A stretch of 38,503 nt of DNA, taken from contig QHRO01000242.1 of the NCBI GenBank assembly GCA_003220155.1, positions 1 to 38,503 of the forward strand, in the 5' to 3' direction. Positions 7,858 to 9,183 of the stretch are shown one piece after another (the stretch's first letter is position 1; each line of letters opens with the position of its first letter). A program made the position numbers and the translations under genes. The DNA is from Verrucomicrobiota bacterium (GTDB lineage: Bacteria; Verrucomicrobiota; Verrucomicrobiia; Chthoniobacterales; UBA10450). The notes under the pieces are model-generated. The model was given only the letters and a program-made list of their open reading frames with translations. It had not been told where the DNA came from and did not search any database.

Positions 7858-7952
7858 TTTGCTTGCGGCTCCGCAGAGCGTCGCCCTACCAATGAAATTT
7901 TCGCGCGCACGCATTGGTAGGGCGAGACTCCGTCGAGCCGCGGAGTCAGGGC
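7849..7952. repeat. Palindromic intergenic repeat (MITE/REP-like)
   Basis: Nested inverted repeats: GCCCTGA...GCGGCTCCGC / GCGGAGTCAGGGC outside and CGCCCTACCAATG / CATTGGTAGGGCG inside. Confidence 0.7.
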
Positions 7953-8067: not shown

Positions 8068-8140
8068 GACCCTATCGTCCAGTGGCCTAGGACACCGCCC
8101 TTTCACGGCGGTAACACGGGTTCGAATCCCGTTAGGGTCG
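8068..8140 (+). tRNA. tRNA-Glu (UUC)
   Basis: 7-bp acceptor stem GACCCTA/TAGGGTC, anticodon arm CCGCC-CTTTCAC-GGCGG with anticodon TTC, T arm ACGGGTTCGAATCCCGT. Confidence 0.95.
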
Positions 8141-8154
8141 CTTCCCTTGGGAAG
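8141..8154 (+). terminator. Short hairpin just after the tRNA, possible terminator or processing structure
   Basis: CTTCCC-TT-GGGAAG perfect inverted repeat; no clear T-tract follows. Confidence 0.35.
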
Positions 8155-8412: not shown

Positions 8413-9183
8413 ATGCAGGATACGCAAATCAAAGTAGCGATTTACAAGCATTTCGCTGAGACGGGGCGGGCGCCTTCAGCGTCAATGGTCGCGAGGCTAA
8501 CCGGCTCAGACACAGAAAGTGTGCGTCAGGGCTATGCGAGATTGCGCGCGCAAAGAGTGCTTGTGTTGCAATCGGACGGCGAATCGATCCGAATGGCACC
8601 GCCGTTTTCCGGTGTTGCAACGCAGCATGTCGTTTCGGTTACCGGTAAACGATACTTTGCTAACTGCGCATGGGATGCGCTTGGAATTCCGGCCGCATTG
8701 CATCGGCCGGCTGTTGTCTATTCGAGATGTGAACAGTCTGGCGAACCATTGCGCCTACAGGTTAGTCTTGAGGGTCCCGAGCCATCGACCTGGCTATTTC
8801 ACTGCCTAGTTCCAGCAGCAAAGTGGTGGGATGACATAGTATTTACCTGAAACAACGTGCTTTTCTTCCGGTCGGAAGAAGCCGTTCACGAGTGGTGCAG
8901 CTTGCGTGGCTATCCGCTGCGACCGCTCGTGACAATTGATCAACTCTGGATACTTGCTACGACGTGGTATTCGACGAGGTTACGGGAAGATTCGCGCAGG
9001 CCACAACCGCAAGACATGCGCACAATCTTCGCTCGGGTCGGATTAAACGGAGAATCTTGGGACCCGCAATCGGACAGTTTCGGTTCAAATGAGCTAGCGG
9101 AATCAGCGATTCCATTGCTGAAACTGTTGAATCCCATTTTTGGGATGAACGAACACTCGCCTTTCCTTCTTATATTTGGTTAA
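8413..9183 (+). CDS. MerB-like alkylmercury lyase with in-frame TGA at 8848-8850; candidate selenoprotein
   Basis: ORFs 8413..8850 and 8857..9183 are in the same frame and together read as one MerB homolog: N-terminal winged-helix-like part, FANCAWDALGIPA (C96/D99 of R831 MerB), YSRCEQSGEPLRL, WWDDIVFT-[TGA]-NNVLFFRSEEAVHEWC, TIDQLWILATTWY. The TGA falls at the conserved catalytic Cys of the FTCxxxLFFRSEE motif. Confidence 0.8.
8854..8886 (+). promoter_or_regulatory. Candidate bacterial SECIS element
   Basis: AACG-(T)-GC-(TT)-TTCTTCC-[GGTC]-GGAAGAA-GC-CGTT: 13 bp stem with bulged T8858 and TT8861-8862 and a GGUC apical loop; 3 nt after the TGA, loop 19 nt after the TGA. Confidence 0.6.

Follow-up and report, generated by a model that had tools for sequence, protein, structure and literature searches.

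In MerB, the organomercurial lyase known structurally from the R831 enzyme (PDB 3F0O, 3F2F and 3FN8) and from B. megaterium MerB2 (5C17), two cysteines, Cys96 and Cys159, hold the metal while an aspartate, Asp99, supplies the proton. MerB-like selenoproteins have also been recognized: SaoL (NF040728), a component of the SAO system, is a MerB-like organometallic lyase selenoprotein that carries a CU motif (PMC13188914, a 2026 review citing Haft & Gwadz 2023). Location in a sao operon, with its six selenoprotein genes, is a further mark of SaoL. Separately, a published survey reports a tRNA-Sec with a CUA anticodon in Geodermatophilaceae, and names FDH, a UGSC protein and AhpC as UAG selenoproteins there (PMC5330540).

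The gene described here lies in a 38,503-nucleotide stretch of DNA (the window) from a Verrucomicrobiota bacterium, the host (GCA_003220155.1, contig QHRO01000242.1). The clade to which its product belongs shares with MerB a common fold, an N-terminal helical domain, the Cys96/Asp99 pair and the Cys159 position, but differs in having a predicted selenocysteine in place of Cys159, in an identity of only ~22-24%, in scores under the NCBIfam cut-offs and in the lack of a mer operon. Like SaoL, these proteins are predicted MerB-like selenoproteins with a presumed role in organometal biochemistry; however, all clade members bear TU, NU or AU at the recoded site rather than the CU motif that marks SaoL, and they score 23-44 bits against NF040728 (41.5 for the window protein), well short of its cut-off of 140. 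Three members use a TAG codon of the kind read by tRNA-Sec(CUA) in Geodermatophilaceae, although that survey does not list MerB as a UAG selenoprotein. A separate clade of Cys-type MerB-like proteins from Ralstonia, Paraburkholderia and other genomes of the host's class (L208, L209, L199 and L201) resembles the present one in length and in the C-terminal region, but has a Cys codon at the recoded column and no hairpin after it where this was inspected. These Cys-type proteins also read CxWC for CxWD, which places a cysteine at the Asp99 position.

The first-pass annotation of this locus had left open whether such a protein was already described. MerB-like selenoproteins are indeed known, in the form of SaoL; the present, widespread clade has no specific model in NCBIfam of June 2026, and we found no description of it in the literature searched, the SAO (PMC9879109) and selenoprotein-neighbourhood (PMC12013261) papers lying outside the reach of that search.

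A MerB-fold protein with a single in-frame TGA codon

The gene spans positions 8413-9183 of the forward strand as a single frame, running from an ATG at 8413 to a TAA at 9181-9183, with the TGA at 8848-8850 as its sole internal stop. The first-pass annotation, made from sequence alone, had joined the two ORFs flanking this codon into one MerB-like protein, and had equated a CAWD motif with Cys96/Asp99 and the TGA with Cys159; both assignments held. The joined read-through protein matches the Pfam MerB family (PF03243) with E=2.2e-29 and 102.4 bits, exceeding the gathering score of 27, and the segments before and after the TGA align one after the other along the profile (1-80, then 87-125). An AlphaFold (AF2) model of the read-through protein has a pLDDT of 94.7 and a pTM of 0.91, and a Foldseek search with this model returned 11 PDB matches at E<1e-3, every one of them MerB or MerB2. 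Profile score and fold together establish that the protein is a member of the MerB superfamily.

Alignment to solved MerB chains places the CAWD motif (8665-8676, forward strand) at Cys96 and Asp99 and the TGA column at Cys159. In the C160S structure 3F2G, where Cys159 is the lone cysteine at this point, that residue aligns with the TGA column. Thus, of the MerB catalytic triad, the window protein keeps the equivalents of Cys96 and Asp99, and the third position is occupied by the TGA codon, a predicted selenocysteine.

Upstream of the gene lies a tRNA-Glu (TTC) at 8068-8141 of the forward strand, a neighbor only. Between this tRNA and the stop codon of waaA, at 7865-7941, is a 30-nt imperfect inverted repeat (83% complementary, with a 17-nt spacer) that resembles a dispersed intergenic repeat.

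Conservation of the codon, the downstream hairpin and the matching tRNA

Peptide patterns built without the recoded residue, run against 85,462 species genomes, picked out 80 loci; together with added genomes from the host's family, these gave 78 distinct full-length relatives. The column of TGA 8848, which the first-pass annotation had proposed to look for in other genomes, reads TGA in 75 of these and TAG in the remaining three, with no instance of Cys, a degree of conservation that far exceeds chance. The relatives span ~13 phyla as judged from record titles and the tree (Verrucomicrobiota, Acidobacteriota, Actinomycetota, Chloroflexota, Planctomycetota, Calditrichota, Gemmatimonadota, Eiseniibacteriota, Krumholzibacteriota, KSB1, Armatimonadetes/Sysuimicrobiota, Eremiobacterota and Pseudomonadota), and nearly all of them lack further stops upstream of the domain end. 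Across 45 relatives, no variation is seen at Cys85, Trp87, Asp88, His130, Trp138-Trp139, Asp141 or the recoded residue. The region 3' of the codon is under purifying selection, with dN of 0.17-0.45 among the closer relatives and dS above 1.3; dS is close to saturation, so the dN/dS ratio downstream of the codon is informative for direction only. The locus satisfies one criterion for a bacterial selenoprotein, namely an in-frame UGA that stands where homologues have Cys and is conserved between genomes. One relative (L097, G092:C302) carries an apparent frameshift just upstream of the selenocysteine site, and may be a pseudogene or an assembly error.

Inspection of the sequence that follows the TGA revealed a hairpin at 8863-8880 of the forward strand (TTCTTCC-GGTC-GGAAGAA), in which a 7-bp stem closes a GGTC loop at 8870-8873. 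The hairpin begins 12 nt past the stop codon and its GGUC loop 19 nt past it, as compared with 18 nt between the UGA and GGTC of the E. coli fdhF SECIS element. Folding of 8848-8886 gives a z-score of -2.68, and a fixed 42-nt segment after the TGA has an MFE that is only mildly low relative to other in-frame segments (mean fraction 0.36-0.44). The decisive test of the hairpin, however, is conservation of codons and pairing rather than fixed-segment MFE. Of the 78 distinct sequences, 77-78 can form each of the six inner pairs and 76 have GGTC as the loop, whereas the outer pair is variable (C-G in 39, T-A in 21). Over the hairpin, where the window protein reads FRSE, the Arg codon is CGG in all 75 Arg-bearing rows, as against 30% elsewhere in the same genes, and 76 of 79 rows use TCG for the Ser, as against 36% elsewhere (the window sequence was entered twice among these rows). 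Compensatory changes are seen as well: the closing C-G pair has become T-A in L146/L149 and A-T in L078, in each case with loss of the Arg. No hairpin was found after the corresponding column in the Cys-type relatives inspected (L208 from Ralstonia and L199 from the host's class), both of which have TGC there. With a position just after the codon and a G at the start of the loop, as expected for a bacterial SECIS element, the hairpin is very likely such an element.

The three TAG members all belong to Geodermatophilaceae (Geodermatophilus saharensis, Blastococcus capsensis and B. saxobsidens), and their genomes contain a tRNA-Sec-like gene that scores 65 bits against RF01852 and has the anticodon CTA; ARAGORN labels this tRNA Pyl, from the anticodon alone. 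Among 17 sampled genomes with TGA members, 16 carry a tRNA-Sec with the anticodon TCA, and none was found in the remaining one, a MAG (L071). This co-variation of TAG with CUA and of TGA with UCA points to decoding as selenocysteine and makes other explanations very hard to sustain. The selenocysteine reading of the first-pass annotation is supported by the codon, the SECIS-like hairpin and the tRNAs, and its remark that TGA is a normal stop elsewhere agrees with the codon's use as the ordinary stop of other genes.

Selenocysteine machinery and the state of the host's two copies

The first-pass annotation had asked for selA, selB, selC and selD in the host genome; the assembly shows selB and a fragment of selA. 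SelB is encoded at full length on contig C103 and scores 312 bits, where the cut-off is 242. Directly upstream of selB are the last 62-68 codons of selA, truncated by the end of the contig, and on the other flank are genes that, from reading of the ORFs, are formate-dehydrogenase-like. Neither selC (tRNA-Sec) nor selD was found in searches of the host assembly. In relatives, including one of the host's own genus (G001), the genes form one complete cluster in the order selC-selD-selA-selB, and G001 has tRNA-SeC and a Cys form of SelD on its selB-bearing contig; the absence of selC and selD from the host assembly therefore fits a contig break inside selA, although this is not proof. The host candidates that we rejected were a thiamine-phosphate kinase (L018) and two matches with scores under cut-off (L019/L020) for selD, and a tRNA-Ser(TGA) as the best tRNA-Sec match. 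SelD is itself mostly a predicted selenoprotein in relatives, with an in-frame TGA in SCAGU-ASKLSQ (L042, L043, L045, L064 and L066-L069), and has Cys instead in G001 and G022.

Within the host's family, SelB scores above cut-off in 7 of 11 genomes with an intact gene, or 9 of 11 if contig-edge fragments are counted, as compared with 49 of 83 genomes overall. Given how common SelB is and how incomplete the MAGs are, this comparison (11 versus 83 genomes) shows no significant co-occurrence of SelB and the gene.

The host has a second copy of the gene (G000:C61), which is 65% identical, intact, and has TGA at the same place. The window copy departs from the norm at its 3' end. Clade members normally end near window position 9084; the ancestral stop, still TGA in a sister genome (G005), is TCA at 9085-9087 of the window, and its loss has added a recent C-terminal extension of ~32 residues (9085-9183, forward strand). 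The protein span to 9183 given at first pass thus requires refinement, in that its last ~32 residues stem from stop loss. The G005 ortholog carries a 64-nt frameshifting deletion, and neither SelB nor tRNA-Sec was found in the G005 assembly, which is 87% complete. The window copy differs from that of G005 by 9 synonymous and 7 nonsynonymous substitutions, for a dN/dS of ~0.24, weak evidence given so few changes. Decay in close relatives, which the first-pass annotation had named as a sign of a plain nonsense mutation, is present in the form of the deletion in G005, and the window copy itself has lost its stop, but the TGA is ancestral. Selection acts on the clade, while the C61 copy may make the window copy partly redundant.

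Mechanism, rival explanations and significance

What computation shows is the frame, the homology, the conservation of codon and hairpin, the matching tRNA anticodons and the presence of SelB in the host. From these we conclude that TGA 8848 is very likely read as selenocysteine at the MerB Cys159 position, in a widespread MerB-fold clade; insertion of selenocysteine and enzymatic activity are both inferred. In the mechanism that we propose, UGA (UAG in Geodermatophilaceae) would be decoded by SelB and Sec-tRNA-Sec under the direction of the GGUC-loop hairpin. By analogy with Cys96, Cys159 and Asp99, the Cys85 thiolate and the Sec146 selenolate would grip the metal, and Asp88 would donate a proton to the leaving carbon, such that a carbon-mercury, or similar carbon-metal, bond would be cleaved. 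We favor the inference that the protein acts as a stand-alone lyase of organomercury or related organometal compounds, outside the classical mer operon.

The genomic context does not by itself establish a role in mercury resistance. Inspection of the neighborhoods of clade genes found no mer operon and no conserved neighbors, and clustering of neighbors grouped only near relatives; nitrilase genes upstream of two loci, considered as a shared partner, were rejected as not conserved. Of 20 genomes bearing a clade gene, only 4 have a MerA that scores above cut-off, and none above it was found in the host. The window protein also falls below both NCBIfam MerB equivalog models (NF009710 and NF033555), scoring 63.3 bits against a cut-off of 193 and 56.2 against 200. 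Two further observations concern related proteins. Near a true MerA in one genome is a MerA-like reductase frame (G113:C27:19421-20776) that scores 374 bits, short of the MerA cut-off, and contains a single in-frame TGA; it may be a mercury-related selenoprotein or may simply have a stop at its end. In addition, other members of the phylum (L203, L204, L205 and L207) encode proteins of ~460-490 aa in which a MerB-like domain is accompanied by the motifs CCSHCALG / GCFHQGFF, a MerB-related family for which we have no explanation.

The rival that survives best is that the protein is a MerB-fold selenoprotein but not an organomercurial lyase, acting on another organometal(loid) substrate or only binding metal. 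This remains possible: the gene stands alone without conserved mer neighbors, MerA is infrequent in the genomes that carry it, and its scores lie far under the NCBIfam MerB cut-offs. Against it, the three catalytic positions of MerB are kept and invariant, as C/D/U with the U predicted. A second alternative, which we consider unlikely, is that the selenoprotein clade is real but the window copy is no longer functional, having become redundant recently after the loss of its stop. The added residues, the broken sister ortholog and the intact C61 paralogue speak for this view, whereas the intact catalytic residues, TGA and hairpin, and, weakly, the dN/dS ratio against the sister, speak against it. 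Very unlikely is a plain nonsense mutation, in which the window copy would be a dying pseudogene of a Cys-type MerB and the TGA a mere stop. The frameshift in G005, the lost ancestral stop and the retention of a second host copy could be cited in its favor, but the TGA is ancestral and shared by 75 relatives across ~13 phyla, purifying selection and a conserved hairpin are found downstream of it, and nothing else interrupts the frame of the window copy. Finally, reading of the stop as another residue, such as Trp, or Cys by way of a variant tRNA, has in its favor that an open frame does not by itself identify the residue, but is all but excluded by the tracking of TAG versions with the tRNA-Sec(CUA) of Geodermatophilaceae (PMC5330540) and by a SECIS hairpin and SelB that agree with selenocysteine; TGA is an ordinary stop in other genes.

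Returning to the preferred reading, selenocysteine in a MerB-like lyase, a bolder form of it holds that the clade is an undescribed, ancient branch of MerB, strictly selenocysteine-bearing in the sampled members and distributed over ~13 phyla, for the most part those of soil, sediment and groundwater. Its proteins would work on their own, without a mer operon, as selenium-dependent lyases of organomercury or organometal compounds, and one lineage would have retained them through a change from UGA to UAG. We lean toward this view, by a narrow margin. The TAG members lengthen the short list of known UAG-selenoproteins by one protein, and supply codon-anticodon evidence for selenocysteine. Because the affinity between selenium and mercury is very high, a selenolate at the site where MerB grips its metal would constitute a natural experiment on the tuning of methylmercury demethylation. 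Moreover, because genes of this type are readily overlooked or taken for truncated ones in annotation, the capacity of soil communities to degrade organomercury may be underestimated.
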